NCBI GenBank assembly: GCA_021818865.1
Contig: JAKASX010000018.1
Coordinates: forward strand, 1 to 46,800
Reading direction: 5' to 3'
DNA: 46,800 bases
DNA from: Acidobacteriota bacterium
GTDB taxonomy: Bacteria > Acidobacteriota > Terriglobia > Acidiferrales > UBA7541
Of this stretch, positions 26,066 through 41,200 are shown one piece after another. The position numbers and the translations under genes were made by a program. How positions within the stretch are numbered: position 1 is the first letter of the stretch; each line of letters begins with the position of its first letter. The notes beneath the pieces are model-generated. The model searched no databases, was not told where the DNA came from, and saw only the letters and a program-made list of their open reading frames with translations.

Positions 26066-28681
26066 ATGCGTCGACCTGGAAAATCGCATCCCAATAAGCC
26101 CAACGCCCAAAAACGGAAAGGTCGCCTGCGCTTCCGCATTCGCTTCGATCGCGGGTTCTGGTTTTCCCGCGTCGGCCTGTCCATCATCGGTGCCGTCCTG
26201 GTGCTTTTTCTCGCCGGCACGGGCGTCTTCCTCGATTATTGGTTCCGTTTCGAACATATGATGGATCTGCGTCTCAGCGGCCAGATTTTCGGCCGCGCTG
26301 CCCAGGTCCTGAGCGCGCCCGCGCGTATCGAAGTCGGCCAGCCGTTGTCCGAACAGCAGCTCGTCGCCTATCTCCAGCGCGCCGGCTACACCGAGCAGCC
26401 TGACGATTATTCTCCCGGCTGGTATCAGGCTTCCGGTTCGTCCATCGAAATCCACCCCTCGAAATCCTCGTATTTTCAGGACACGAACGCGCTGCGCGTC
26501 GATTTTTCCGCGGGGAAAATAACCGCCATACGCCGGCTTGATAACGGTCAGATGACCACCGACGCTGAAATCGAGCCGGTTGTCATCACCACCCTGTTTG
26601 GCAGTTCGCGCGTGAAGCGCCGCGTGGTTCACTACAACGAACTCCCGCCCACGCTCATCCACGCCGTCCTCGCCGCCGAGGACAAGGACTTCTTCACCGA
26701 ATCCGCCATCGATCCCGAGCGGATCCTCGCCGCCGCCTATACGGATGTCCGCCTCGGACGCAAGGCGCAGGGCGCCAGCACGATCACCATGCAGGTGGCC
26801 CGCACCTTCTTCTTCAGCCGCGCCCGCACCTTCCGCCGGAAATTTGAAGAGACGCTGATGGCGTTCGAGCTCGAACACCATTTCACTAAGCAGCAGATTT
26901 TCGATCTCTACGCGAATCAGGTTTATCTCGGCAATCGCGGCTCTTTTTCCATTCATGGCTTCGGCGAGGCCGCTCAGGCCTATTTCGGCAAGGATATCCG
27001 CGACCTCAATCTCGCTCAGGACGCCTTCCTCGCCGGCATCATCCGCGCACCCAACTACTACGCCTCCAGCGACACCCACCCCCAGCGCGCCTACGACGCC
27101 CGTAACCGCGTCCTTCACGGGATGGTCAACGACGGTTTCATCTCCCGCGCCCAGGAACAGGCCGCTTTTCAGGATCCGCTCGTCGTCCGTCCTGCCGCGG
27201 TTTCCACCAGCGACGCTCCCTACTTCGTCGATCTGGTTCGTCAGCAGTTGCTCGATCGCTTCACAGAGCGCCAGCTCACCAGCGACGGCTATCGCGTCTA
27301 CACCACGCTCGATCCCGAGCTTCAGCATGCCGCCGTACAAGCCGTTTCCGACGGCATGAAGCTCGTAGATCAGCGCCTCGCTTGGCGTTACGCACGCCGC
27401 AAGAGGGAAGGCAAGCCCGTTTCTCGTCCGCAGGTCGCTCTTGTTGCCCTCGACCCTCAAACGGGCCACGTGCTCGCCCTCGTCGGTGGGCGCGACTACG
27501 CCAAAAGCCAGCTCGATCATGCGCTCGCTCGCCGCCAGCCCGGCTCTTCTTTCAAGCCGTTCGTTTACGCTGCTGCGCTCCTCGACGCGGTGGACGGCCG
27601 TCAACCGGTTGTCACGCCCATCACCACCGTCATCGACGAGCCCACCACGTTCAATTTCGACGGCCAGCAGTACACGCCCGATAACTACGAACATGAATTC
27701 TTCGGCGTGGTCACCGCCAAGCAGGCGATTACCCATTCGCTCAACGTCGCTACCGTCAAGATCGCCCGCATGGTCGGCTACGACTGGATTCTCCAGGTCG
27801 CCCGCCAAATGAAACTCGACGACCAGATCCAGGCGACCCCGGCCATGGCCCTCGGCGCTTACGACATGACCCCGCTCGAAGTCGCCGCCGGCTACACCGC
27901 GCTCGAGGACGGCGGCGTTCGCGCCGAACCCATGTTCATCCGCAGCGTCGTTCAGCCCGATGGCGCCGTCGCGCTGGAAAATCGTCCTCAGACCACGCCC
28001 GTGCTCGATCCACGCGTTGCTTTTGTGGTCACCACGCTCATGGAAAACGTGCTTGACCATGGCACCGGCGTCGTCGCTCGCATGATGGGCTTCGACGCTC
28101 CCGCTGCCGCCAAAACCGGCAGCTCCCACGACGGCTGGTTTGCCGGCTACACCTCGAAACTCATTTGTGTCGTTTGGGTCGGCTACGACGATAGCCGCAA
28201 TCTCCATCTCGCCGGAGCCGATTCCGCCGGGCCTATCTGGGCGGAATTCATGAAGAGCGCGCTCCAGCTTCCCGGCTACGATAATCCCCAGCCGTTCGAT
28301 CCGCCGTCGGGGGTGGTCGCGGAACAGATTGATCCTCGCACGCTCGAACTCGCCACGCCGCAGTGTCCTGATCCCCAAACCGATTACTTCATCACCGGGA
28401 CCCAACCCACTGCCTATTCCGGAGGCATCATGGCCAATGCGCCTCCGCCGGTTTCCTGGATGGCGCACATTTTTGGTGCCGGCAAGGGTCCCGCACCTCC
28501 GGTTTCTCAGTCTCAGACCCAGCACGTTTCTTCTCCCGCGCTTCAGCCTCGCCTCATGCCGGCTCCAAGTCCGACCCCGGCGAAACCCCCCGCCTCTGCG
28601 CCCCCGCAGCCGAAAAAAAAGACGTTTTTCCAGCGTCTCTTTGGTATCTTTGGAGCCAAGAAGAAGCCGTCTGGCCATTAG
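26066..28681 (+). CDS. Class A penicillin-binding protein (PBP1-type, bifunctional)
   Basis: An 871-residue peptidoglycan synthase. After a basic N-terminus, one membrane anchor lies near residues 32-55. A UB2H-like segment (about 75-170) precedes the glycosyltransferase with AAEDKDFF (Glu205) and GASTITMQVART. The transpeptidase has SSFK with Ser494, SLN at 558-560 and KTGS at 683-686. The Pro-rich tail (about 790-870) is probably disordered. It polymerises glycan strands and cross-links peptides on the periplasmic side. The UB2H-like region suggests a PBP1b-like layout in which an outer-membrane lipoprotein activates it. The TPR gene starts 26 bp later, so the two are likely co-transcribed. 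Confidence 0.94.
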   Translation: MRRPGKSHPNKPNAQKRKGRLRFRIRFDRGFWFSRVGLSIIGAVLVLFLAGTGVFLDYWFRFEHMMDLRLSGQIFGRAAQVLSAPARIEVGQPLSEQQLVAYLQRAGYTEQPDDYSPGWYQASGSSIEIHPSKSSYFQDTNALRVDFSAGKITAIRRLDNGQMTTDAEIEPVVITTLFGSSRVKRRVVHYNELPPTLIHAVLAAEDKDFFTESAIDPERILAAAYTDVRLGRKAQGASTITMQVARTFFFSRARTFRRKFEETLMAFELEHHFTKQQIFDLYANQVYLGNRGSFSIHGFGEAAQAYFGKDIRDLNLAQDAFLAGIIRAPNYYASSDTHPQRAYDARNRVLHGMVNDGFISRAQEQAAFQDPLVVRPAAVSTSDAPYFVDLVRQQLLDRFTERQLTSDGYRVYTTLDPELQHAAVQAVSDGMKLVDQRLAWRYARRKREGKPVSRPQVALVALDPQTGHVLALVGGRDYAKSQLDHALARRQPGSSFKPFVYAAALLDAVDGRQPVVTPITTVIDEPTTFNFDGQQYTPDNYEHEFFGVVTAKQAITHSLNVATVKIARMVGYDWILQVARQMKLDDQIQATPAMALGAYDMTPLEVAAGYTALEDGGVRAEPMFIRSVVQPDGAVALENRPQTTPVLDPRVAFVVTTLMENVLDHGTGVVARMMGFDAPAAAKTGSSHDGWFAGYTSKLICVVWVGYDDSRNLHLAGADSAGPIWAEFMKSALQLPGYDNPQPFDPPSGVVAEQIDPRTLELATPQCPDPQTDYFITGTQPTAYSGGIMANAPPPVSWMAHIFGAGKGPAPPVSQSQTQHVSSPALQPRLMPAPSPTPAKPPASAPPQPKKKTFFQRLFGIFGAKKKPSGH

Positions 28682-28706
28682 CCGGGCGGCCCACAGGGGG
28701 CGTTTC

Positions 28707-29588
28707 ATGAAGGCGGGCGCAGGGGCTAAGTCCGTTTTCTCGCTCTTGGCGTGTTGCATCTGCGTCTCGCCCTTTTTCGCCGTTTCCGCCCAATCGCAGC
28801 AGTACCGGCCGCAAGCCTCTCCCGCCGTCCAACCGCAATCCGTTTCCACGCCGGCTCGTCCGGTTTCTGCTGCGTCCGTCTCTCTCGCGCGTCCCATGAC
28901 GCCTTTCGAGCGCGAGGAAATGCTCGGCGATGTCTACATGATTCGGAAAATGTTTCGTCACGCCATCGCCGCATACGCGGATTTGCTGCGAGAGGAGCCG
29001 AAAAACTCCGTTCTTTTGAACAAAATCGGCATCGCTTACCAGCAACTCGACCTGCCCAAATTCGCCGAACGCTACTACAAGAAGGCTGCGAAAGCGGACA
29101 AGCGCTCCGCCATTCCCATCAATAATTGGGGCACCGTCGAATTCGGATTCCATCATTACGGCGCTGCCATCAATCGCTATAAGCACGCGATCCGCCTCAA
29201 TCCCGCCATGGCCTCCGCGTACAGCAATCTCGGCTACGCTTATCTCGCCCAAAGAAAATACAAGGCTGCCGTCCTGGCGTTTTGCCGCACGATCGTGCTC
29301 GATCCCTCCTACTTCGAGGATCGTGGCGCAGGCGGCGAAGTGATCGAATTGCGAGGCAATCAGCCGCCCGGCCTTTTCTATTACCTCCTCGCCAAATCGT
29401 TTGCCACGCTCGATGATGTTGCGAGCTGTGCCCACTATCTGAAAATGTCCCGCGACGAGGGCTACAAGAAATTCACCAACGCGCTAAAAGACCCCGCATT
29501 CAAAACCGTCCTCCGTGATCCGCGCATTCGCGCGATCTTGCTTCCTCCACCACCCGCTGCTCCCACCGACGCTCAGCCCGTTCGTTAA
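28707..29588 (+). CDS. Secreted tetratricopeptide-repeat protein
   Basis: A 293-residue protein with a signal peptide (FSLLACCICVSPFFAVSAQ). A Gln/Pro/Ala-rich linker follows to about residue 60. TPR-like helices include YRHAIAAYADLLREEPKN-type units (FRHAIAAYADLLREEPKN, KFAERYYKKAAKADKRS, YGAAINRYKHAIRLNPAM and YKAAVLAFCRTIVLDPSY). TPRs form a scaffold for protein partners. The gene follows the PBP gene by 26 bp, so it may organise envelope or wall-synthesis proteins; this is inference from context. A lipoprotein reading of the N-terminal Cys pair (ACCICV) is possible but lacks a good lipobox. ATG 28707 is chosen because the longer ORF from 28329 lies inside the PBP gene. Confidence 0.82.
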   Translation: MKAGAGAKSVFSLLACCICVSPFFAVSAQSQQYRPQASPAVQPQSVSTPARPVSAASVSLARPMTPFEREEMLGDVYMIRKMFRHAIAAYADLLREEPKNSVLLNKIGIAYQQLDLPKFAERYYKKAAKADKRSAIPINNWGTVEFGFHHYGAAINRYKHAIRLNPAMASAYSNLGYAYLAQRKYKAAVLAFCRTIVLDPSYFEDRGAGGEVIELRGNQPPGLFYYLLAKSFATLDDVASCAHYLKMSRDEGYKKFTNALKDPAFKTVLRDPRIRAILLPPPPAAPTDAQPVR

Positions 29589-29884
29589 TCGCGTTTTTCG
29601 CTTCTTTTTGCTTCATGACTGCTGTTCTCCGCTCCGTTTTTCCGCCATGGCGCGGCCGCCTCCTCCATACCGTAGTACTTTCGTTGGATTGACCGTCCTT
29701 CAGCGTTCCCGTAAACGTGAAATGGTCTTGGCAGCAGTGGTCTCGAATCCGGGTGTTTGTGCATCGGGCCTGCGGGAACAGGTTTCGCCTCGGAAATGCC
29801 AATTGTTCCGAAGTGAATCAGCAAGCTGTCGTGTGTCTGGTTTCCCGGCCGATGCGCGGTTTGGAGTCCCTTACGAACCGGACA

Positions 29885-30406
29885 ATGGCGATGTTCAGGT
29901 TGCGTCCCTCGAACCCCGTCTCGCGTGGCCGTTTGCCGGAGCGGGGAAGTGAAATGTTGGAATTTGCGTTCGTTATGACGTTTCTGATGACCCTCCTGCT
30001 GGCCATCATCAGTTTTTCCCGGGCTTACAACGTCTACCAGACGATTACGCGCGCCGCGCGCGAAGGCGCTCGCATGGCCGTTTTGCCCAGCTGCGCCACC
30101 TGCGGCAATAGCTACCTGGATCCTTCGACTGGCGTCACGCTGCAGAACAGCCAAATCTTCAGCGACTTCATCGCTCCAACCCTTCGCTCCGCGAATCTCA
30201 ATCCTGACTCTGTGTTCAATTATTCCGAAACCGTCGCCTGGCTCGATTCCGGTGACGCCGACGAGCAGTGCGGCGTGAAGATCGGTTTCGAATATCCCTA
30301 CACCTTGTGCCTGCCGTTCGCCGGTTGGCAGCTCACCACTCTCGATCTCACCACCAGCGTGCAGATGCGCCGCGAAAATCAGCCGATTGGAGCAACGTGC
30401 CCATGA
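29885..30406 (+). CDS. TadE-like pseudopilin A, tad module 1
   Basis: A protein of about 173 residues with an Arg-rich leader, then ERGSEMLEFAFVMTFLMTLL, a single hydrophobic helix typical of TadE/TadF pseudopilins. The Gly before SEMLE and the Glu at +5 form a prepilin-peptidase-type site. The following SRAYNVYQTITRAAREGARM is the TadE helix continuation. The periplasmic part contains paired Cys (SCATC) and QCGVKIGFEYPYTL, conserved in the other A-type copies. TadE-like proteins are minor pilins of Tad/Flp pili. The start is uncertain: ATG 29885 or 29891 are best, but neither has a good ribosome site. The stop overlaps the next gene by 4 bp (ATGA). Confidence 0.8.
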   Translation: MAMFRLRPSNPVSRGRLPERGSEMLEFAFVMTFLMTLLLAIISFSRAYNVYQTITRAAREGARMAVLPSCATCGNSYLDPSTGVTLQNSQIFSDFIAPTLRSANLNPDSVFNYSETVAWLDSGDADEQCGVKIGFEYPYTLCLPFAGWQLTTLDLTTSVQMRRENQPIGATCP

Positions 30407-30939
30407 GCGCCGCTCGTCTTGGCCCCTCGCGCGTTCTCGCGTCCTCGCACGGAGTCGAACTGCTGGAATTTGCTCTCGTCCTCCCGTTTCTGCTCGTCCT
30501 GCTGGTTGGAATCTGGGATTTCGGCGCTGCTTTCGCTCTGAAACAGAAAACCACCAACGCCGCGAGCGAAGCCGCGCGCATCGTCGTTTCCACGTCGTTG
30601 AGCGATGCGAATTGCACCAGCGCCACGCCCTGCGCGATCGTGGCCGCCGCCAACGCCGCCGTCCACTATCTGAACGACGCCGGCCTCAACGCTTCCTGTA
30701 TCACTCCCGGTTCACCCACCTCGACGTCAGGCCTCACGTGGACCTATTCGTGTTCGAATGGCATTTCTCTAGTGATGAATCGCGGCTACGCCGTCGCCAG
30801 CGCCGGCGGTTCCCTCCTCCCCAGCACGCAAGTGATTCTCACGTATCCCTACCAGTGGTGGCTCGCACGGTTTTTGCCGGGGTACGCCACGCCCGCCCTG
30901 GTCAAAACGCAAGTGATCATGGCCAATCTGGTCGATTGA
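30403..30939 (+). CDS. TadE-like pseudopilin B, tad module 1
   Basis: A 178-residue protein of the second TadE-like type. The N-terminus SSHGVELLEFALVLPFLLVL has Gly followed by Glu at +5 and a hydrophobic helix. The conserved neck IWDFGAAFALKQKTTNAASE follows, recurring in the other B-type copies as AWDFGSAF..KQKLTNAARE. The periplasmic part has spaced Cys residues (NCTSATPC; SCITP; YSCSNG) that could form disulfides, and ends in a VKTQVIMANL segment shared in pattern with its paralogues. ATG 30403 overlaps the A-type stop; the TadG-like gene starts 9 bp after the stop. It is probably a minor pilin or assembly factor with its A partner. Confidence 0.83.
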   Translation: MSAARLGPSRVLASSHGVELLEFALVLPFLLVLLVGIWDFGAAFALKQKTTNAASEAARIVVSTSLSDANCTSATPCAIVAAANAAVHYLNDAGLNASCITPGSPTSTSGLTWTYSCSNGISLVMNRGYAVASAGGSLLPSTQVILTYPYQWWLARFLPGYATPALVKTQVIMANLVD

Positions 30940-30948
30940 GGAGGAGAC

Positions 30949-32238
30949 GTGGCCGAAGATTCGCAGCGGGTAGGTGGGTGCGCCGAGCGAGGAGTTTCAC
31001 TGTTCCTGGTGGCCTTGTCGCTTGTGGCGATTCTCGGTGCTGCCTCGCTCGCGATCGACCTCGGCATGCTCTACGTGGCCCGCAGCCAAGCCCAGCGCGC
31101 CGCCGATGCCGCCGCCCTCGCCGGCGCGGCCGCCTTCATCAATTCCGGCTGCACCACCGCGGCCGGCGGTTGCGTCGCCGGTGGCGCCCAGGAATCGCTT
31201 GCCCGCCAGCAGGCGGAAAATGTCGGCGACGAAAACGATGTGGCGGGAGAAGCGGCCAGCATTCAGGACGGTGATGTCTCTTTCTCGTATCCCAATCCGA
31301 TGGAGCCGCAGATCACCGTCACCGTTCAGCGCACGGTCGCTCGCGGCAATGCCATTCCGCTTCTTTTCGCCAAACTTTTCGGCGCCACGTTTGGCAGCGT
31401 TTCCGCCATGGCCACCGCCGAGGCTTTCAATCCCTCCGGCGCGTCCGTTCCCGTCAGCTACGGTTGCGTCGCTCCATTTCTCGTGCCGAATTGCGATCCC
31501 GTTCACACCACTCCGCTCAGCTCCACTTGCGCCGGCGATAGCGCGGGCTATTTCATTGACCCATCCACTGGCGACGTTGCTCACCCGGGCGCCTATTCAA
31601 CTGGCGTGATTGGCGAGCCGTGGCAGCTGCATAGCAACGCCGGACCGAGCCAGTGGTATCTGGTCGCATACAACACGAATCTGGCTACGGAAATCTCTTC
31701 GGGCAACAGCAACGGCAACGGTCAAAGCGCGTCGCTTCTACGCCAATATATCTCCGAATGCGCGCCCGCCGAGGTTTCCTGCGGCCAGACCGTCAGCACG
31801 TTTAACGGCACCAGCGTCGGCCCCACGGATCAAGGCATCGACGCGAGGATCAACGCCAGCGCCGACGGTCTCGGTCAAGGGCAGGATTCGATCGATACTT
31901 CGGTTGGTCCGCCGTTTCCGATTACAGGGGGATCGAACAATCCCGATCCTTCGCTCGTCGGTCAAACCTATTACGGCCCCAGCCCATCGGGGGTTCTCGT
32001 TCCCGTCTACGACGGCCACACGCTGAATCCGGGCGGGGATACGGTTTCCGTTGTGGGCTTCATTCAGCTTTTCATTCAAGACGTCGTTCACCAGGGCAAA
32101 AGCGACCTGATCAACGCGATCGTGCTCAACGTGATGGGTTGTTCGAGCGGAGGCGACGAAACCGGCGACAGCGGAACGCCTCCCATCGCCGCTACCGGCG
32201 GCCTGCCGATTCCGATTCGCCTCATCCGCACCGATTAG
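30949..32238 (+). CDS. TadG-like protein, tad module 1
   Basis: A 429-residue protein with an N-terminal Tad domain: ERGVSLFLVALSLVAILG, then LAIDLGMLYVARSQAQRAAD and AAALAGAAAF. Typical TadG proteins continue into a von Willebrand A domain; no DxSxS MIDAS motif is seen here. Instead the rest is Gly/Ser/Asn-rich with Cys-bearing blocks (GCVAPFLVPNCDP, ECAPAEVSCGQTVS) and ends in GLPIPIRLIRTD. It would sit in the inner membrane with a large periplasmic part, perhaps at the base of a pilus. GTG 30949 has GAGGAGGAG just upstream. Strong C use on the plus strand distinguishes this copy from module 3. Confidence 0.8.
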   Translation: MAEDSQRVGGCAERGVSLFLVALSLVAILGAASLAIDLGMLYVARSQAQRAADAAALAGAAAFINSGCTTAAGGCVAGGAQESLARQQAENVGDENDVAGEAASIQDGDVSFSYPNPMEPQITVTVQRTVARGNAIPLLFAKLFGATFGSVSAMATAEAFNPSGASVPVSYGCVAPFLVPNCDPVHTTPLSSTCAGDSAGYFIDPSTGDVAHPGAYSTGVIGEPWQLHSNAGPSQWYLVAYNTNLATEISSGNSNGNGQSASLLRQYISECAPAEVSCGQTVSTFNGTSVGPTDQGIDARINASADGLGQGQDSIDTSVGPPFPITGGSNNPDPSLVGQTYYGPSPSGVLVPVYDGHTLNPGGDTVSVVGFIQLFIQDVVHQGKSDLINAIVLNVMGCSSGGDETGDSGTPPIAATGGLPIPIRLIRTD

Positions 32239-32706
32239 CAGAATCCTTGGCGGGGAGACGTGCGCGCAGGGTTGGTTGTGCGGCGCCTCGTTGTGCGTTC
32301 GGCGCACGAATCACAGGCTGGCAAAGGCCGCCGATCAACGCTCTCTTCGCCGCGCCCCGTGAGTCGCCCGCGCGGCGGGAGGAGTGGATTTGTCTTGCGA
32401 CGACTATTAGCTAAGGCTTCAATAACGGGATCGGACAGTTCCATTACGGGGTGGAATTCTTGCTGCGGGCTGTTCCCGAACGGTCCGAATTCTCCACCTA
32501 AGGTCTTCCAAATCAGCGCCCAGTTCCTGGTCCGGTAGTTGTAGAATTCCGCTCTAAATTTATTACTGCGTCAATATCTCGGAAATAACAGAAAGCGCCC
32601 GGAAGTTTTTGTCCCCCAATCACTTATCTCTGGACTTTCAACACAATCGGTCTACAATGCTGCCAATAGACGTGGGAGATTGATTCGCAGCGGGGAGAAG
32701 GAAAAA
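32239..32706. other. Intergenic region between tad modules 1 and 2
   Basis: About 470 bases with no supported gene. The second half is AT-richer than its surroundings and carries a good promoter at 32631-32658. No transposon ends or inverted repeats were seen. Confidence 0.5.
32631..32658 (+). promoter_or_regulatory. Promoter of tad module 2
   Basis: TGGACT (32631-32636) and TACAAT (32653-32658) are 16 nt apart, in an AT-richer stretch. Predicted start is near 32665, about 42 nt before the chosen TTG start of the first gene. Confidence 0.6.
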
Positions 32707-33309
32707 TTGGCCCTCATTCGTTATTTCAAATGGCATCGGTTGCATGTTTCGAAGGGGAACACTCCGTCGGCGACCGACCTGCACACGCAGCTATCCATGT
32801 CATCGCCATCTCAAGCTCGTACCCCGTCCCGCTCCCGCGAACGCGGCGCCGAAATCCTCGAATTCGCTTTCGTCCTGGGTGCTCTGCTCGCACTCATGCT
32901 CGGCATCTTCTCCTTTGCTCGTGCGTATGAGGTTTACGGAACCATCACTCGGGCCGCCCGCGAGGGCGCGCGCATGGCTGTGCTGCCGAGCTCGATCCAC
33001 GACGGAAATACCTACATAGATGGGAATCAAACCAGCGTCACGCAGGCCAATAGCCTGGTCTTTTCGCGATACATCACCCCGGCTCTCACCGCGGCCAACC
33101 TCGATCCGGAAGCGGTTATCGATTACAGCGAAACGATTGGTTGGTTGGACCCAAGCGACGCGGACCCGCAATGCGGGGTTACGATCAGTTTTAAGTATCC
33201 CTATCAGTTCTCGATCCCGTTCTTGGGCCAGGGCCTCGGCACAGTCGATATTCCCACAAGCGTCCAAATGCGCCGCGAAAATCAATCCACCACGGGGAGC
33301 TGCCCATGA
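32707..33309 (+). CDS. TadE-like pseudopilin A, tad module 2
   Basis: A protein of about 200 residues, paralogous to the A-type proteins of modules 1 and 3. The pilin-like segment is RERGAEILEFAFVLGALLAL with Gly(-1) and Glu(+5). It continues FARAYEVYGTITRAAREGAR and MAVLPSS. The periplasmic part shares DYSETIGWLDPSDADPQCGV, SFKYPYQFSIPF and VQMRREN with its relatives. The start is uncertain: TTG 32707 has GGGGAGAAGG 5 nt upstream and suits the predicted promoter; ATG 32797 and TTG 32680 are alternatives. It overlaps the B-type gene by 4 bp. Codon use is less GC-biased than in module 1. Confidence 0.8.
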   Translation: MALIRYFKWHRLHVSKGNTPSATDLHTQLSMSSPSQARTPSRSRERGAEILEFAFVLGALLALMLGIFSFARAYEVYGTITRAAREGARMAVLPSSIHDGNTYIDGNQTSVTQANSLVFSRYITPALTAANLDPEAVIDYSETIGWLDPSDADPQCGVTISFKYPYQFSIPFLGQGLGTVDIPTSVQMRRENQSTTGSCP

Positions 33310-33893
33310 AGCGCCTGTGCTTTACCTTTTGCCGTGCTCGCCGCTTAAATGCTCGTGGCGGCGAACATGGGGCTCAGCTTTTGGAGTTCGTGCTGGTCTT
33401 TCCACTGCTGGCGCTGCTGGTGGTGGGGGCATGGGATTTCGGTTCCGCATTCGTCATGAAGCAGAAGCTGACGAATGCAGCTCGCGAGGGTGCGCGGATC
33501 GTCATCTCAAACTCCATACTCGCACCCCTGTCGGGTCCATGCAGCGGCGTGACAATACCTTGCCCGATTACCACTGCCAAGAACACCGTTGCCTTGTATT
33601 TGTATAACGCAGGCATGACCGATGCCTCCTGCCTGAACTCGGCACCGGTTAGCACGCAGTACCAAATTGGACCTCCGCCGTCGGGTTTGGCGTCCTGGAC
33701 CTGGACCTGCGGCGGAATAACACTAACCATCAACCGCATGGCCAACTTGGGGACAGACACCTCGGTTTCCTTGGCCTACCCCGTGAATTGGAGCTTGGTC
33801 AATTTTATGTCAAATGTCTATCAGCAGTTCCAAGGAGCCACCGTCCAGCCCGTGCAGATCACTACCACCGTGACGATGCCGAATCTCACGTAG
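33306..33893 (+). CDS. TadE-like pseudopilin B, tad module 2
   Basis: A 195-residue B-type paralogue. The N-terminus contains EHGAQLLEFVLVFPLLALLV with Gly(-1)/Glu(+5), then AWDFGSAFVMKQKLTNAARE and GARIVISNS. It is longer than the module 1 copy, with an extra loop around residues 110-135 (STQYQIGPPPSGLASWTWTC). The final strand region ends in VQITTTVTMPNLT, like VIPDQITTHVTMQNL in module 3. Cys residues at similar spots suggest disulfides. It starts within the ATGA overlap and precedes the TadG-like gene by 20 bp. Confidence 0.83.
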   Translation: MKRLCFTFCRARRLNARGGEHGAQLLEFVLVFPLLALLVVGAWDFGSAFVMKQKLTNAAREGARIVISNSILAPLSGPCSGVTIPCPITTAKNTVALYLYNAGMTDASCLNSAPVSTQYQIGPPPSGLASWTWTCGGITLTINRMANLGTDTSVSLAYPVNWSLVNFMSNVYQQFQGATVQPVQITTTVTMPNLT

Positions 33894-33913
33894 ATACAAT
33901 AGGGAGAGCACCT

Positions 33914-35305
33914 ATGACGAAGGGGATAATCCTGCGGCGGAAGATTGAGTCCGAGCTCGGCGTCACACTGTGGCTCGTCGCCTTCGGCTTGATAGCCTTG
34001 CTTGGGGTCATGGCCTTGGCGATTGATCTGGGCCTCCTTTACGTGGCTCGCAACGAGGCGCAGCGCGCCGCTGACTCCGCGGCCCTTGCCGGCGCCGACG
34101 TTTTCTACACATCTGCATGCACCGACCTGACGGGCAGCAACGCGTGTGACTCCCAAGCCGTCCGTACAACGGCGGCGCAAGATGCGATGCTTGCCGCCGC
34201 GCAGAATTACGTCGCTGGCCAAGCCGCTTCCGTCAATTGTCCTGAATACGCCGATCCGTCTCTCGGTAGCACCAGTTGTCCCGATATTGAATTCTCGGAC
34301 CCGACGGCGAATGGCACGGAGCCCCAAATCTCTGTCACAGTGCGACGCACCGGAATCCATACGATCTTTGCGCAGGTATTCGGTGCCGGGCTCCAGTCCG
34401 TATCGGCCACGGCGACCGCTGAGGCCTACAACCCCAATGGCGGAAACACCCTGACATCGGTGTCTTGCGTCTCTCCGTTTCTGGTACCGAATTGCAATCC
34501 GACAACTAGCACATCTGGCACAATCAATAGCCTCTGCGGCTACCCCGCGGACTATTTCATGGTCCCCAACTCCACCTCGCTGAACCCAGGCGTAATCGGC
34601 GAACAGTGGGACTTGCACACAGGCGACGCGACGGCCAGCGACGCCGCTGTTCCAAGCGAGTGGTTTACCGACGCCGTGACGCCATCGCAAGGCAGCGGCG
34701 GCAGCGCCCTGGAAAACGCAATTCAGGAGTGCCAGCCGCTCACCTGCGGCGAGGGCGTGCCAGCAGTCCCGGGGAAGAAGGTCGGACCCGTGGATCAAGG
34801 ACTCCAGTCGAGGATAGGGTTGAGCCCAGACACAATCGTTGTGAACCCCAACGGAGACAACATTCCCCCGTATCAAATCTACGCTGGGGCGAGCAACCCA
34901 CTGGTCCAGGCCGGGGTGATCAGGGTGGGCGCACCCATTGACCCGTCCCAAAGCCCGTCGGTCGCCACACTCGCCGTTTATGATGGCGCGATCTGCGGCG
35001 TGGGCACCCTGCCGAACGGACAAGTACCCACAACGACGAACTCAGACTGTCTTAGCTCGGGTCAGAACGCAAACAGCATTAGCACTATGCCCAAAACGAC
35101 CGTCAACGGCCAACCTGTTTATGGCCAAGTCGTCATAGGATGGATGCAGGTGTTTATCCAGCAGGCCTCCGGCGACGCCGTTCCAACGATTATTCTCAAT
35201 ACATCGTACTGCGGAGGTGGCACGACGCCGCCAGTCGGCACCCAAGGTGCCACGCCGATACCCATCCGGCTGATCACGGGCCCCGACGCCAACTACGGGT
35301 CCTGA
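33914..35305 (+). CDS. TadG-like protein, tad module 2
   Basis: A 463-residue TadG-like paralogue. The N-terminal Tad segment reads LGVTLWLVAFGLIALLGVMA then LAIDLGLLYVARNEAQRAAD. Blocks closely shared with module 3 include NCPEYADPSLGSTSC, TIFAQVFGAG, CVSPFLVPNCNP, GEQWDLHTGDA, ECQPLTCGEG and PGKKVGPVDQG. It ends GATPIPIRLITGP. No MIDAS motif is seen, so a von Willebrand A domain seems absent. ATG 33914 has AGGGAGAG at good spacing; an upstream in-frame ORF overlaps the B-type gene. It is closer in sequence to module 3 than to module 1, so the copies did not arise all at once. Confidence 0.8.
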   Translation: MTKGIILRRKIESELGVTLWLVAFGLIALLGVMALAIDLGLLYVARNEAQRAADSAALAGADVFYTSACTDLTGSNACDSQAVRTTAAQDAMLAAAQNYVAGQAASVNCPEYADPSLGSTSCPDIEFSDPTANGTEPQISVTVRRTGIHTIFAQVFGAGLQSVSATATAEAYNPNGGNTLTSVSCVSPFLVPNCNPTTSTSGTINSLCGYPADYFMVPNSTSLNPGVIGEQWDLHTGDATASDAAVPSEWFTDAVTPSQGSGGSALENAIQECQPLTCGEGVPAVPGKKVGPVDQGLQSRIGLSPDTIVVNPNGDNIPPYQIYAGASNPLVQAGVIRVGAPIDPSQSPSVATLAVYDGAICGVGTLPNGQVPTTTNSDCLSSGQNANSISTMPKTTVNGQPVYGQVVIGWMQVFIQQASGDAVPTIILNTSYCGGGTTPPVGTQGATPIPIRLITGPDANYGS

Positions 35306-36301
35306 TGCGCCCACATCCTCCTCTGGGCGGCGCTTGGCGTTGGGATGGTGTGTACTGCCCAAGGCGATTTCCCAATCGCCCCAAACAGGGCGGTTTCTTT
35401 GAAATGCCGTCGGCTATCGACGGGATCCTTTGCCCGATTTTCACAACCACCTCATCGGAGACTCCCCGCGAAGAAGTGCGGCGCTCGAATTCAGTTGCTG
35501 CCCGTCGAGCCCTTGCGGAAATAGGGGGAAGCTGAAATTCGGATGTCAGCGCTTTTGCGTTGGGCGCGCGCTCCGACTCTTCTTCGCCTTGGCGGGCGGC
35601 CGAAACGGGACGTTCCCCGAGGACTCACCTGGCCCCAGGGCAGAGGTAGAGGCAGATCGCTCCGCGAAGAGCCCCCGGCCGTTTGGCCTTGATTCTCAGC
35701 GACGCCAGGGCGCGGATTTCCCCTCGGGGGCCTGTTGCAAGTCCGAGCAAGGCTCCATTCGGCGAAAGGAAATCCCGGCCTCTGACGCGGCCTCCGGAAT
35801 GCGCGGGACATCCTGCGTTCCGGCCACCTCAGCCTCGCTTGGGGCGTTTGGCGCTTTAGGAATTTCGAGTGCGGCTCCGGCCGAGGCTTCTTGCGCGCTA
35901 CGCTCGCTCATTCCGGTCAGCTCCCGGAGTCTTTGGGCTGGGGAAAGACTGCTATCATTCCGCCGGCGTTTCGCTGGGCCAGAGGCGACCCGCGAAACTC
36001 ATATGGGAAAATCCCCTTGGGTCAGCCGATTTCCGCCGCGTGTTGTAAGCTGCTCCGCCTGGCCTCATTGATTTGAAGGCAAGTGTTTGCCTTGTTCGCA
36101 ATACCCCGACTGCTGGATGTTGCTCGCTTGTCCCTTGCGCGCAACTCGACCCACGGAATGGGACGGTAAGACGCGACCTCATGGAACCCCAAGGCGTTAC
36201 CTCCTTCCGCAATCACAGTACTCACATTTTCGTAAAACTACCGGTCCTGTAACCGCCTCTGGAATCCTGCGTGCCAAATCACATGGCAGAGAGGCAGGAA
36301 A
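35306..36301. other. About 1 kb non-coding gap between tad modules 2 and 3
   Basis: No gene is supported. An open frame at 35430-36071 gives a low-complexity Ser/Arg/Pro/Cys-rich product with no recognised motif or ribosome site. A 7-bp hairpin (GGCGATT, loop TCCC, AATCGCC) lies at 35363-35380, 58 bp after the module 2 stop, without a T-run. The region lies near a change in strand composition and could be a rearrangement scar or the control region of module 3. Confidence 0.5.
35363..35380. terminator. Short perfect hairpin after tad module 2
   Basis: GGCGATT and AATCGCC form a 7-bp stem with a 4-nt loop. No T-run follows directly, so termination is only possible, not shown. Confidence 0.35.
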
Positions 36302-36931
36302 ATGGGGGAAAACCGTTACACCTTGTTGACAGTTGCACCGAAGCGTTGTTCTCAGGCGTTCTCCGAAGGTTACGAAGTCACGCGCAAGAGGTCTCGGGGC
36401 GCGAGACCAAATGGGGAACGCGGCACGGAAATCCTGGAATTTGCCTTCGTCTTCACGCTGCTCGCGGCGCTTGCCCTCGCCATCATGGCGTTTGCACGCG
36501 CTTACAACGTGTACCAGACGATCAATCGCGCGGCGCGCGAAGGAGCGCGAGTGGCAGCGCTGCCGAGTTCCGTTTACGACGGCAACACGTTTATTGACGG
36601 CTCGACCACCTACACCGCGCCCGATAGCCCCATTTTCACCGACTACGTCGCGCCGGCGCTCCAGGCCGCGAATCTGGGTACGAGCGCGTGCGCCAGCTCC
36701 ACCTCGATCAATTGCATCGCCAACTACAACGAGCAAATCGGCTGGCTCGATCCCTCCGGCACCACCGACAATCAGTGCGGCGTTTCGATCAGTTTCACTT
36801 ATCCCTATCAACTTTCGATCCCCTTTATAGGCGCCGGCATCGGCACGCTGAATCTGAAGGCCGACGTGCAAATGCGCCGCGAAGACCAACCGACGACCGA
36901 CAGCATATCGGGCGCCACGACGTGCCCGTGA
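36302..36931 (+). CDS. TadE-like pseudopilin A, tad module 3
   Basis: A 209-residue A-type paralogue. The pilin-like segment NGERGTEILEFAFVFTLLAA has Gly(-1)/Glu(+5), followed by FARAYNVYQTINRAAREGAR and VAALPSSVYDGNTFIDG. The periplasmic part has an insertion with Cys (CASSTSINC) and then the shared QCGVSISFTYPYQLSIPF and VQMRREDQP. ATG 36302 has GAGGCAGG upstream and gives a 40-residue basic cytoplasmic leader. Unlike modules 1 and 2, it does not overlap its B partner: 33 bp separate them. It is probably a minor pilin for a Tad-like fibre. Confidence 0.82.
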   Translation: MGENRYTLLTVAPKRCSQAFSEGYEVTRKRSRGARPNGERGTEILEFAFVFTLLAALALAIMAFARAYNVYQTINRAAREGARVAALPSSVYDGNTFIDGSTTYTAPDSPIFTDYVAPALQAANLGTSACASSTSINCIANYNEQIGWLDPSGTTDNQCGVSISFTYPYQLSIPFIGAGIGTLNLKADVQMRREDQPTTDSISGATTCP

Positions 36932-36964
36932 CGCGTCGGAACAACCGGACGAGGAGAACGACGC

Positions 36965-37486
36965 ATGGCATGGCAAACGCGATTCGCTGAACGACGGACG
37001 TGGAGAAATGATCGGGGCAGTCAGCTGGTGGAATTCGCCCTGGTCCTTCCGATTCTCTGTCTGTTGTTGGTTGGCGCTTGGGATTTCGGGTCGGCGTTCG
37101 CCATGAAACAGAAACTGACGAACGCAGCACGCGAAGGCGGGCGAATCGTCGTCTCGAACACCATTCTTCCCACCACGGCCTGCGCACCGGGGACAAACCC
37201 GCCGTGCTCGATTTCGGCCGCGGCGACGGCCGTTGCGCAATACCTGGACAATGCGGGCCTGAGCGCGTCGTGCCTTTCGTCGGCCACCGCGAGCGGAAGC
37301 TTTCCCGTATGGACGTGGAACTGCAGCAGCATCAAGCTTACGATCGATCGCGGCGTTAATGCCGGCGTTGATACCACGGTCACGTTGACGTATCCCGTGA
37401 CCTGGAGCTTGCAGAATTTCTTCGGTGTGACGGTGATTCCCGATCAGATCACCACACACGTAACCATGCAGAATTTGACCCTATGA
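36965..37486 (+). CDS. TadE-like pseudopilin B, tad module 3
   Basis: A 173-residue B-type paralogue. NDRGSQLVEFALVLPILCLL has Gly(-1)/Glu(+5), then AWDFGSAFAMKQKLTNAARE and GGRIVVSNTI. Cys residues occur as in the other B copies (TACAPGTNPPC; SCLSS; WNCSS). It ends VIPDQITTHVTMQNLTL. The reading frame overlaps the TadG-like gene by 4 bp (ATGA at 37483-37486). ATG 36965 has ACGAGGAG upstream. The close match of the neck region to module 2 supports duplication followed by divergence. Confidence 0.84.
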   Translation: MAWQTRFAERRTWRNDRGSQLVEFALVLPILCLLLVGAWDFGSAFAMKQKLTNAAREGGRIVVSNTILPTTACAPGTNPPCSISAAATAVAQYLDNAGLSASCLSSATASGSFPVWTWNCSSIKLTIDRGVNAGVDTTVTLTYPVTWSLQNFFGVTVIPDQITTHVTMQNLTL

Positions 37487-38901
37487 AACGCGCGGAGGAC
37501 GTACCGGCAATGAACGACAAGAGGCGTGGGAGCGGAACGCGTGACGACCGGGGTGCGACATTGGTTTTCGTGGCGCTCGCGCTTATCACCTTGCTCAGCG
37601 TGATGGCACTGGCCATCGACTTGGGCATTCTTTACGTGGCGCGTAGCCAGGCGCAGCGCGCAGCCGATGCCGCGGCGCTGGCCGGCGCGGACGTCTTTTA
37701 TACGGAAGGCTGCGTTTCGGGAGCGAGCGGCTGCGTGGCCGGCGGATCGCAGGAAAGCTTGGCTGCGGCGCAGGCAATCAACGCGGCTTCGCAGAACACC
37801 GTCGCGGGCCAGTCCGCTTCCATCAATTGCCCCGAATACGCCGATCCTTCGCTCGCGAGCACGAGCTGCCCGGGAATCAGCTTCGCCTACCCGAGCGCAG
37901 ACGAGCCGCAAATCACCGTCACCGTCGAGCGCAGCGGTATCCCGACGATCTTCGCACAGGTTTTCGGCGCATCCGCCGGCAGGGTGAGCGCGACGGCTTC
38001 GGCCGAAGCCTACAGTCCCGAAGGCGGCGCGGCCAATAGCACGCCCGCCTGCGTCGCGCCGTTCCTCGTCCCCAATTGCGACCCCAATCAATCCAACCCT
38101 CAAAACACGGTTTGTCCGAATTCTTCCCCCGCGGGCTATTTTGCCAATCCAAACGTGAGTCCCGTTACGCTGGACTACTCCTCGATTGGTACGCAGTGGG
38201 ATCTCCACTTCGGAAGCGCCGGCGCCAGCGATTCCGCCGCGCCGAGCGAATGGTATCTGGTGGCGATTTGGCCGAGCGGCAATCCCAGCGCCGCCGAGGA
38301 AGAAGCCGCGATTCAGGAATGCATTCCGGTGACGTGCGGCGAATCGCTGCCGGCGATTCCAGGTAAGAAAGTCGGGCCGACGGACACCGGAGTCGAGGAT
38401 AGAATCGACGCGAGCGGGCCTTCCACCGGCTGCCCCAATAACTGCAATTTCGGCCAGGGCCAGGACACGATTACCGCCGAATCCGGCCAAAGCCCTGGCT
38501 ACCAGATCTACGCCGGATCGAATAATCCGCTGGTGACGGCAGGCGACGTGACCGCCGGTTCGGCGATCGGGACGCAGCAGAGCCCGTCGGTGGTGACGGT
38601 CGCTATGTACGATGGCGCCGTTTGCGGAACGGTCGAACCGGACGGGACTGTGGAATCCACGTCGAATTCCGACTGCATCGGCCCTGGCGGCGGAAACGTC
38701 ACCGTTGTCGGCTGGATGTCGCTCTTTCTCGAAGGCTACTACCACGGAGCCACGTACGACGGCGTACAGTCCATGATCCTGAGCATCACGCCATGCGGGA
38801 GCGGGACCCTAAATGGCGGATCCGGTGGCACGCTGGCCGGCGATCTTAATAGTCCCGGCGCGACACCGATCCCGATCCGGCTCATTCAGCACGCGAACTG
38901 A
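37483..38901 (+). CDS. TadG-like protein, tad module 3
   Basis: A 472-residue TadG-like paralogue, the longest of the three. The N-terminal Tad segment is DDRGATLVFVALALITLLSV then LAIDLGILYVARSQAQRAAD. It shares NCPEYADPSLASTSC, TIFAQVFGA, CVAPFLVPNCDPN, GTQWDLHFGSAGASD, ECIPVTCGES and PGKKVGPTDTG with module 2, and ends GATPIPIRLIQHAN. No MIDAS motif is seen. The start may be ATG 37483 (overlapping the B gene) or ATG 37510, which has GGAGGA 11 nt upstream. The plus strand is G-rich here, in contrast to module 1. A hairpin follows the stop. Confidence 0.8.
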   Translation: MKRAEDVPAMNDKRRGSGTRDDRGATLVFVALALITLLSVMALAIDLGILYVARSQAQRAADAAALAGADVFYTEGCVSGASGCVAGGSQESLAAAQAINAASQNTVAGQSASINCPEYADPSLASTSCPGISFAYPSADEPQITVTVERSGIPTIFAQVFGASAGRVSATASAEAYSPEGGAANSTPACVAPFLVPNCDPNQSNPQNTVCPNSSPAGYFANPNVSPVTLDYSSIGTQWDLHFGSAGASDSAAPSEWYLVAIWPSGNPSAAEEEAAIQECIPVTCGESLPAIPGKKVGPTDTGVEDRIDASGPSTGCPNNCNFGQGQDTITAESGQSPGYQIYAGSNNPLVTAGDVTAGSAIGTQQSPSVVTVAMYDGAVCGTVEPDGTVESTSNSDCIGPGGGNVTVVGWMSLFLEGYYHGATYDGVQSMILSITPCGSGTLNGGSGGTLAGDLNSPGATPIPIRLIQHAN

Positions 38902-38907
38902 AAACGC

Positions 38908-38941
38908 CGGGCACGCGAACTGAACCCGCCTGGCGTGCCCG
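38908..38941. terminator. Inverted repeat after tad module 3
   Basis: CGGGCACGC (38908-38916) and GCGTGCCCG (38933-38941) are exact reverse complements with a 16-nt loop, 6 nt after the module 3 stop. No T-run follows. A 14-nt direct repeat (GCACGCGAACTGAA at 38889 and 38911) overlaps its left arm. Confidence 0.5.
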
Positions 38942-38976
38942 AGCGACGCTTAACTTCCGCCGCCGCGCACCAACGC

Positions 38977-38985
38977 TGGTATAAT
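38977..38985 (+). promoter_or_regulatory. Extended -10 promoter of nfeD (near-leaderless)
   Basis: TGGTATAAT is a perfect extended -10 (TGnTATAAT). The nfeD ATG begins 11 nt after it, so the leader would be about 3-4 nt. No good -35 is present, which is normal for extended -10 promoters. Confidence 0.65.
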
Positions 38986-38995
38986 CCGCGTTGAG

Positions 38996-40357
38996 ATGAA
39001 GCGGGCAGTTTTTGCGCTGCTGGCGCTGGGTGCTCTCTCGCTTTTCACGCCGCGAGCGACCGCGCAGACGCCTTCTACCGAAACGGTCATTCGCCTCAGC
39101 ATCGACGGCGAAATCGAACCGATACTCACGGAATACATCGAAAGCGGACTCGCGCGCGCGGCGCGCGAACACGCCTCGCTGGTGCTCATCCGGATGGATA
39201 CGCCGGGCGGGCTGGGCGAATCCATGCGGCACATCATCCAGGCGATTCTGCGGTCGCCGGTTCCGGTGTGCGTCTACGTGGAGCCGGACGGGGCGCGAGC
39301 GGCATCGGCGGGATTCTTCATTCTGGAATCGGCGGATATCGCGGCGATGTCGCCGGGAACGGAGATGGGCGCGGCTTCGCCGCTGCTCGAAGTGGCGGGC
39401 TATCCGGTGCAGGTGGATCCCACGCTGCGAAGGAAAATCGTCCAGGACACTTTGGCGTTTCTGCGGAGCTACGTGAGCCAGCGCGGCCGAAACGTGACGG
39501 TGGCGGAAACGGCGGTGACGAAAGCGAAGGCGTTCAGCGCGAAGGAAGCGCTGGACGACAAGCTGATCGACCTGATCGCGAATTCCGAGCCGGATCTGCT
39601 CACCCAGCTCAACGGAAAGACGATCGCGCGGTTCGATGGGTCGCAGGTGACGCTGCACCTGGGGCATCCGGTGATCGTGAACGTGGGCATGTCCGCCCGG
39701 GAACGGTTCCTGGCGCGCATCGTGCAGCCGGACGCGTTTTTCATTCTGCTGATCGTCGGCGTGCTGGGGCTCTACATCGAATTCACGCATCCGGGGCTGG
39801 TGGCGCCGGGGGTGGTCGGCGGCATCTGCATTTTGCTCGCTCTGTTTGCGATGCACATGCTGCCGGTGAATATGACGGGGCTGTTGCTGATTCTGCTGGC
39901 GATTGCGCTGTTCGTTCTGGAAGTGAACTACTCCGGGCACGGGATCCTGGGCGTGGGAGGGGTAATCGCGCTGATTTTGGGCGCGGTGATGCTGGTGCGC
40001 TCGCCGCTGACGACAGGTGGCGTGGGCCTGGGCGTGGCTTTCGGCGTGGCGATTCCGTTCGCCGTGTTTTTCATTCTGGTCGGGCGATTGCTGCTGCGGT
40101 CGTTCCGCTGGAAACCGGCGACGGGAAGCGAAGGGCTGCTGGGCGCTGTCGGCCAGGTGACCGAGCCGGTAGGGAAGGCCAAAGGGAGCGGAATGATTTT
40201 CGTCCATGGGGAATTGTGGCGCGCGATGAGCGCCGCGCGTGACGCCGCCGAGACGCCGATCCCCAAGGGCGCCTGGGTTCGCGTAGTGAAAGTGGATGGA
40301 CTAACGCTTCATGTGGAACCGGCCGAAGCGCCCGCTGCTCGGCCGGACGCGGGCTAA
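38996..40357 (+). CDS. nfeD: NfeD-family membrane serine protease (long form)
   Basis: A 453-residue long NfeD. A signal peptide (about 1-23) is followed by a ClpP-like protease domain: LVLIRMDTPGGLGESM, then GARAASAGFFILESADIAAM with the likely nucleophile Ser104, and GTEMGAASP. In the characterised relative from Pyrococcus (1510-N) a Ser-Lys dyad cleaves the C-terminus of its slipin partner. Several membrane helices follow (about 240-365), then a soluble OB-fold NfeD domain (GLLGAVGQVTEPVGKAKG, VHGELWRAMS, WVRVVKVDGLTLHVEP). The slipin gene is 18 bp downstream, the standard nfeD-slipin pairing linked to membrane microdomains and stress. Confidence 0.93.
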   Translation: MKRAVFALLALGALSLFTPRATAQTPSTETVIRLSIDGEIEPILTEYIESGLARAAREHASLVLIRMDTPGGLGESMRHIIQAILRSPVPVCVYVEPDGARAASAGFFILESADIAAMSPGTEMGAASPLLEVAGYPVQVDPTLRRKIVQDTLAFLRSYVSQRGRNVTVAETAVTKAKAFSAKEALDDKLIDLIANSEPDLLTQLNGKTIARFDGSQVTLHLGHPVIVNVGMSARERFLARIVQPDAFFILLIVGVLGLYIEFTHPGLVAPGVVGGICILLALFAMHMLPVNMTGLLLILLAIALFVLEVNYSGHGILGVGGVIALILGAVMLVRSPLTTGGVGLGVAFGVAIPFAVFFILVGRLLLRSFRWKPATGSEGLLGAVGQVTEPVGKAKGSGMIFVHGELWRAMSAARDAAETPIPKGAWVRVVKVDGLTLHVEPAEAPAARPDAG

Positions 40358-40375: not shown

Positions 40376-41200
40376 ATGGGTTTCGGCGAAACGCTGTTTG
40401 CGATTGCGGTGATACTGTTCCTGATCTGGCTCTTCAACTCCGTTTACGTCGTCAAGGAATGGGAGCGCGGCGTGATCCTGCGCATGGGCCGCATGTCGCC
40501 CGATATCAAAGGCGCAGGCTTGCGGATCGTCGTCTGGCCGATCGACAAGTTTTACCGGATTTCGCTGCGGATTGATACCATCGAGATTCCGCCGCAGGAC
40601 ATCATCACGCACGACAACGTCTCCGTGAAAATCAATGCCGTCTGCTATTTTCGCGTCGTCGACCCCAGACTCGCACTTTCCACCGTCCAGAATTACCTCT
40701 ACGCCACCACCCAATTGGCACAGACCACCCTGCGCAGCATCGTCGGCCAATTTGAATTCGACGAAGTCCTCTCCGAGCGCGAAAAAGTAAACGAGAAGGT
40801 GCAGTTTATCCTTGACCAGGATACCGAGCCCTGGGGTATCAAGGTGTCCAAGGTCGAGGTCAAGCAGGTGGACATTCCGGAAAACATGCAGCGCCTGATC
40901 GCCCGGCAGGCCGAGGCGGAGCGTGAACGCCGCGCTAAAATCATCGCCGCCGATGGCGAATTCCAGGCTTCGGCCAAGCTCGCCGACGCGGCCGATGTTC
41001 TGTCGAAGAACCCCATCTCGGTCGAACTGCGCTATCTCCAGACGCTGATCGACATCGGCATCACCAACAACACCACCATCGTCTTCCCGCTCCCGCTCGA
41101 TCTGGTCTCGTTTTTGCGCGGCGGCTCCTCCCATCCCACTCTCGCACCGATCGTCTCTCCCGCGCCGGCCCAAGCGCCACCGGCGGAACAAGGGAAATAG
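40376..41200 (+). CDS. Slipin (SPFH/Band 7, stomatin-like)
   Basis: A 274-residue stomatin-like protein. One N-terminal membrane hairpin or helix (TLFAIAVILFLIWLFNSVYV) precedes the SPFH domain: VKEWERGVILRMGRM, DTIEIPPQDIITHDNVSVKI, VDPRLALSTVQNYLYATTQL and GQFEFDEVLSEREKVNEKVQ. A helical region rich in Glu/Arg/Ala (RQAEAERERRAKIIAADGEF) promotes oligomerisation. The C-terminal tail is Pro/Ala-rich. It is the expected partner and likely substrate of NfeD. ATG 40376 has GGAGGAGG. Slipins scaffold membrane domains; the precise role here is unknown. The + strand is C-rich in this gene despite G-rich neighbours. Confidence 0.94.
   Translation: MGFGETLFAIAVILFLIWLFNSVYVVKEWERGVILRMGRMSPDIKGAGLRIVVWPIDKFYRISLRIDTIEIPPQDIITHDNVSVKINAVCYFRVVDPRLALSTVQNYLYATTQLAQTTLRSIVGQFEFDEVLSEREKVNEKVQFILDQDTEPWGIKVSKVEVKQVDIPENMQRLIARQAEAERERRAKIIAADGEFQASAKLADAADVLSKNPISVELRYLQTLIDIGITNNTTIVFPLPLDLVSFLRGGSSHPTLAPIVSPAPAQAPPAEQGK

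Follow-up and report, generated by a model that had tools for sequence, protein, structure and literature searches.

Three minor-pilin gene sets at one locus

The stretch of Acidobacteriota DNA analysed here (the window; 46,800 bases) makes up the whole of contig C137 in a 3.97 Mb genome (G000) that is 95% complete and assembled in 165 contigs, and it carries at positions 29885-38901 nine open reading frames, all on the plus strand, that form three consecutive TadE–TadE–TadG modules. Each module is a set of two TadE-like minor-pilin genes (A and B) and one gene for a large TadG-like minor pilin (C), with coding sequences that overlap or are almost contiguous. Module 1 comprises A1 (29885-30406; start codon uncertain; Pfam TadE E=3.2e-13), B1 (30403-30939, overlapping the A1 stop; E=3.6e-13) and C1 (30949-32238; Pfam Tad E=1.3e-9). 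Module 2 comprises A2 (32797, or 32707, to 33309; E=2.3e-10), B2 (33306-33893; E=3.1e-14) and C2 (33914-35305; E=6.2e-11), and module 3 comprises A3 (36302-36931; E=5.5e-10), B3 (36965-37486; E=2.5e-15) and C3 (37483-38901; E=4.2e-9). All nine proteins score above the Pfam gathering score, the A and B proteins in TadE (PF07811; E from 5.5e-10 to 2.5e-15) and the three C proteins in the TadE/G-like family Tad (PF13400; E from 4e-9 to 6e-11); a search of NCBIfam gave TadE-family matches only, all below threshold. The stop/start overlaps at A1/B1, A2/B2 and B3/C3 suggest translational coupling. An earlier first-pass annotation of this DNA had described three modules with shared order, coupling and motifs, a description borne out by the frames, by the Pfam matches and by the motifs themselves, with QCGV..F.YPY present in all three A proteins and AWDFGSAF..KQK in B2 and B3.

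Protein identity between the modules is 51-60% for A, 45-58% for B and 45-55% for C, and at the DNA level only patches align, mostly at 65-77% identity, which points to an old multiplication rather than a mis-assembled repeat. Modules 2 and 3, already singled out as the closest pair in the TadG-like gene, are in fact the closest pair in every gene (A 60%, B 58%, C 55%). Phylogenies of each gene type resolve the sets as relatives, with modules 2 and 3 as sisters (support 100/99 for C and 98/97 for B, only 89/65 for A) and module 1 as a single orthologous clade (100/99 for C, in four species). The “tandem triplication” of the first-pass annotation thus stands insofar as three related sets lie in tandem, but it was not a simple one: module 1 has been kept vertically, modules 2 and 3 form a sister pair, and the genome has six sets in all.

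The proteins share an architecture whose parts have diverged unevenly. A class III leader of the form G/xxxxE is present in 10 of 10 A and B proteins of the five same-type sets in the genome and in no C protein; those of the window read G/SEMLE, G/VELLE, G/AEILE, G/AQLLE, G/TEILE and G/SQLVE, and the C proteins have no Glu5. The predicted structure of A1 (predicted local distance difference test, pLDDT, 81) is pilin-like and consists of one long and one short helix plus a small sheet. That of C1 (pLDDT 76; predicted template-modelling score, pTM, 0.57) has a helix at residues ~9-66 and a pilin-like head at ~67-160; its distal region (~161-420) stands apart and closes with a C-terminal strand made up of the sequence PIPIRLI. 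This strand and the overall architecture are common to all sets. For the orthologous C proteins of module 1 (G000-G004), helix, head and distal region are 67, 67 and 67% identical, compared with 62, 48 and 43% between the paralogues of modules 1 and 2, 62, 58 and 42% between modules 1 and 3, and 62, 62 and 44% between module 1 and a further set on contig C164. Paralogous sets thus retain ~62% identity in the helix and ~38-44% in the distal TadG domain, and the drop from orthologues to paralogues is significant for the distal region (p 1e-7) and not for the helix (p 0.7). A helix conserved across sets, together with a distal region that differs between sets but is kept within a set, argues that the base of these proteins is held to a common partner.

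One Tad machine and six sets in the genome

Among the window genes scanned, we found no Tad ATPase, secretin, platform protein or prepilin peptidase, in line with the first-pass annotation. A genome-wide search located one complete Tad locus, on contig C41, with genes for TadV (peptidase A24), RcpC/CpaB, the secretin CpaC, CpaE, TadA and TadB/TadC (two T2SSF proteins), a Flp-like pilin whose match (30.8 bits) falls slightly below the 32.2-bit cut-off, and a TadE–TadE–TadG set of its own (A4, B4, C4). A gene for a sigma54-type activator lies a few genes upstream. This locus holds the sole TadA match in the genome, and one TadA apiece was likewise seen in the four genomes of the genus in which TadA was found. 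Of the same type is a fifth set (A5, B5, C5), which stands alone on contig C164, preceded by a proton-pumping pyrophosphatase-like gene. The sixth, of another type and in the order G-E-E (C6, B6, A6), lies on contig C37; the genome therefore has six sets, five of them of one type, against one TadA. In the A, B and C trees the window sets and the C164 set group apart from the sets of tad loci (support 96/93 for A, 97/95 for B and, with L074 included, 99/99 for C).

The C41 locus also encodes a 515-residue multi-span membrane protein without a Pfam match (L035:9750-11297), whose gene sits between the TadE–TadE–TadG set and Flp/TadV and is kept in the Tad loci of the genus and of G025. It is possibly a glycosyltransferase for pilin.

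The presence of minor-pilin genes tracks that of the machine. Among 26 relatives scored for both, TadA was found in 12 of the 13 with TadE or module genes and in 1 of the 13 without (Fisher p 3e-5, a value that overstates independence because the scored genomes are related), and all 20 further genomes picked for TadE carry TadA. TadE occurs in 66 of 121 genomes of the class, with the highest number of matches (12) in G000, and four of the six genomes with at least six matches belong to this genus.

Turnover of the sets at a fixed site

The array is framed on the left by genes for a class A penicillin-binding protein (PBP1; 26066-28681, plus strand; Pfam Transgly/Transpeptidase) and a TPR protein (28683-29588, plus strand; Pfam TPR; start uncertain) and on the right by nfeD (38996-40357, plus strand; Pfam NfeD), of which PBP1 and nfeD are syntenic family-wide. 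In sister genera nfeD comes straight after the PBP1–TPR pair, or is separated from it by a single other gene or a short gap. No TadE or TadG gene was detected at the site in L146, L147, L149-L153 and L156-L158, where the interval is clear, nor in L145, L148, L154, L155 and L159-L161, where it is longer or partly missing. In the four congeners (G001-G004) the site is occupied by differing mixtures of sets, with module 1 kept in three. G003 has module 1, a different A–B–C set (mX; best BLAST identities 34-43%), a C3 fragment and nfeD, contiguously and at the same site. In G004, module 1 is followed by a C6B6A6-type set, an A–B–C set (mY), an unrelated island and another C6B6A6-type set. In G001, module 1 and a C6-type set reach the end of the contig, and in G002, where the interval is split over two contigs, C6-type sets lie at either end of it. 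To judge from this gene order, PBP1/TPR and nfeD enclose an accessory site particular to this genus, at which sets appear to have been duplicated, lost or replaced.

In G003, whose tad locus matches the public metagenome-assembled genome (MAG) YF1.bin127 (L073), the module 1 proteins are 85% (A1), 84% (B1) and 89% (C1) identical to those of the window, and C1 orthologues are more distant in G001 (70%) and G004 (65%). Between mX and nfeD lies a pseudogene remnant of C3 (L132:16756-17379), 181 residues of the C-terminal part at 83% identity, cut off on its 5' side by a stop. The tree places this fragment with C3 (100/99), and as modules 2 and 3 form a sister pair, they must have separated before G000 and G003 split. 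Most of module 3 has since been lost from G003.

In the gap that follows module 1, a leader at 32600-32742 on the plus strand, with a promoter-like element, the Shine-Dalgarno-like GGGGAGAAGG and the first codons, is 90.1% identical over 142 bp of DNA between G000 and G003, as against 59% for the 5' part of that gap. The genes that follow are only 57% (A2/AX), 50% (B) and 51% (C) identical, near the level of paralogues (A2/A1 62%, C2/C1 54%) and not that of module 1 (83-85%) or nfeD (88%) in the same pair of genomes. The leader holds a sigma70-like promoter, TGGACT-16-TACAAT (32631-32658); its core precedes mY in G004 at equal spacing, and weaker forms precede C6-type sets in G001 and G002. 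A generic promoter and terminator scan gave sites no more frequent than in shuffles, so the case for the predicted slot-2 promoter comes solely from conservation across species. The A2 frame is open and conserved 5' of its first ATG (32680-32797), and from TTG 32707 on its codons differ from those of G003 by several synonymous changes; these changes and the conserved leader codons make TTG 32707 the likelier start of A2, the ATG start probably being too short. We read this pattern as a set replaced behind a retained promoter between G000 and G003, with very fast divergence in place as the alternative.

The island between the pilin sets of G004 (L135:3406-7727) encodes an uncharacterised nucleotidyltransferase, an HPr-kinase-C-like protein and an asparagine synthase, and resembles a lasso-peptide-type biosynthesis cluster.

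The other genes of the window include an SPFH/stomatin-like gene next after nfeD (40376-41200; identified by reading of the sequence) and genes for a prolyl-tRNA synthetase, an OmpA-family protein and an apolipoprotein N-acyltransferase. A tblastn search of the inter-module gaps for leftovers of more sets gave chance-level matches only, and no RNA families were found in 28600-39400.

Alternative tips for one pilus

Taken together, these observations make it probable, in our view, that the window sets encode interchangeable minor-pilin tip complexes for the one Tad pilus encoded on C41. TadE, TadF and TadG correspond to CpaJ, CpaK and CpaL in Caulobacter. We propose that each A–B–C set would form a heterotrimeric tip complex, in which A and B bring the Glu5 leaders and C, which has no Glu5, would put its large distal domain at the filament end; by analogy only, the Glu5-less GspK of type II secretion sits at the very tip. 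The C41 machine (TadV, CpaB, CpaC, CpaE, TadA, TadB, TadC and Flp) would cleave, prime and extrude all sets, with its own set as the default and the three sets of the window and that of C164 as alternatives of the same type. With several tip sets and one machine, the cell may be able to equip one filament with alternative tips, and since the filament-docking helix is shared and the exposed distal domain differs, the sets probably alter the binding of the pilus tip. The first-pass annotation had raised alternative minor-pilin tips on one machine as a possibility, and every genomic test run here supports it: a single Tad locus, TadE tracking TadA, the leaders of the A and B proteins, and a base conserved among paralogues whose distal domain has diversified.

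The functional part of this proposal we infer from likeness to the Kil (Tad) pilus of Myxococcus, in which genetics revealed four paralogous KilL/M/N sets, homologues of TadE/F/G, that serve as partly redundant, interchangeable tips, any single one being enough for polymerisation (Herrou et al. 2025, PMC12075869). The efficiency of these tips depends on the prey, and other Tad pili were proposed to be customised likewise (PMC12075869). Like Kil Tip1-4 of M. xanthus, the system described here combines several divergent three-gene sets, partly dispersed from the machine locus, with one Tad-type machine and a large protein that has a variable distal domain. It differs in belonging to another phylum and in having three sets in tandem at a site that turns over between species. 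Relative to Tad minor pilins in general, the sets share the Pfam TadE and Tad domains, the class III leaders and an equivalent set in the genome's own tad locus, but one set per tad locus is usual, compared with six sets, five of the same type, per one TadA here. A further parallel is found in the three PilY1/minor-pilin clusters that prime one type IVa pilus (T4aP) in M. xanthus, where differential expression has been proposed to accessorise the tip (PMC7541494, PMC9109919); these too are alternative tip sets on one filament machine, but that system is of type IVa, with a PilY1 adhesin and other gene families.

Several points weigh against interchangeable tips on the C41 pilus. The evidence points to no specific ligand or binding specificity, and outer domains outpacing a membrane-type helix are partly expected in any pilin. 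G001 carries module 1, yet TadA was not found in that fragmented MAG, which is the single scored relative to have such genes and no TadA match. Fold searches with the moderately confident C1 model gave no significant match (best Foldseek E 0.11; VIA-align Z ≤6.3, to unrelated enzymes, with PilA-type pilins at 4.4-4.9); A1 likewise reached Z ≤6.3, a Thermus type IV-like pilin scoring 4.7, and a PDB sequence search with a C profile found no match.

The extra sets could instead be redundant paralogues, kept by dosage or drift, that form equivalent pilus-priming complexes and leave tip specificity unchanged. The retained architecture and C-terminal PIPIRLI strand of every set would fit such redundancy, as would the decay of module 3 in G003, from which at least one set is dispensable. 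We nevertheless think it unlikely, given that module 1 is intact in four species, that the window frames are intact despite 40-55% protein divergence, and that the exposed part has diverged selectively in paralogues and not in orthologues. It is quite improbable that the sets build a separate surface structure, be it a pseudopilus of their own or tips for one of two other machines: the window sets do lie off the C41-locus contig, and the genome has two further PilB/GspE-type ATPase loci of T4aP or type II secretion system type, on C19 and C59, but the TadE and TadG families are Tad-specific, their presence tracks TadA, and the C41 locus has a set of the same type. A contact-killing weapon like that of Myxococcus, with prey-specific tips and a needleless type III secretion system, would follow the same gene logic of several TadE/F/G-like sets per Tad-like machine (PMC12075869). 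We give it very little credence, since the FHIPEP/SctV export gate (PF00771) had no match in this 95% complete genome, in which positive controls matched, and Kil-tip profiles matched Myxococcota only (PMC12075869). An artefact of assembly or binning, for which the source, a MAG of 165 contigs with the window as one whole contig, gives some occasion, is hardly credible when the copies are just 45-60% identical at the protein level, G+C and composition are uniform with the flanks, independent MAGs show both the flanks and module 1 in synteny and contiguously, and one of these, G003, carries module 1, another module and the C3 remnant contiguously at the same site.

Returning to interchangeable tips, we tentatively raise the further possibility that PBP1/TPR and nfeD bound a dedicated tip-cassette locus, where whole sets would be swapped as units, sometimes behind a conserved leader, and where lineages of the genus might re-tool the tip of their single Tad pilus. 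We found no description of such cassette replacement for Tad pili, and our literature search returned no relevant account of Tad pili in Acidobacteriota. What is new here is the phylum, the tandem arrangement and the species-level turnover at a fixed site. The interpretation would extend the theme of one Tad machine with many tips from predatory Myxococcus to the Acidobacteriota, a largely uncultured phylum that abounds in soil, and the empty, several-set, decayed and replaced forms of the site offer a natural comparison series for how pilus tips gain specificities.

Multiple sets are also seen outside the genus. We had considered that several sets occur only in this genus, as the other 18 positive genomes of a phylum sample have one copy each, and dropped this idea in view of two multi-set genomes: G326, with eight TadE matches, at least three pairs and one TadA, and G335 (9% contamination), with three tandem TadG–TadE–TadE sets, one more set and one TadA. 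Set multiplication therefore happened more than once, and these independent cases in other families of the class suggest that the multi-set condition is recurrent. In the G-E-E array of G335 (L162:3867-11933 on contig C339), which belongs to another family, the first two sets are sisters (51/56/45% identity) and the third is divergent. In other Terriglobia (L078, L079, L082-L084 and L086-L091), an A–B–C set directly follows a gene for a TadV-type prepilin peptidase, and the stretches examined gave no match to any further Tad core gene, an order that may be compared with KilA, which is needed for the maturation of some Kil tips.

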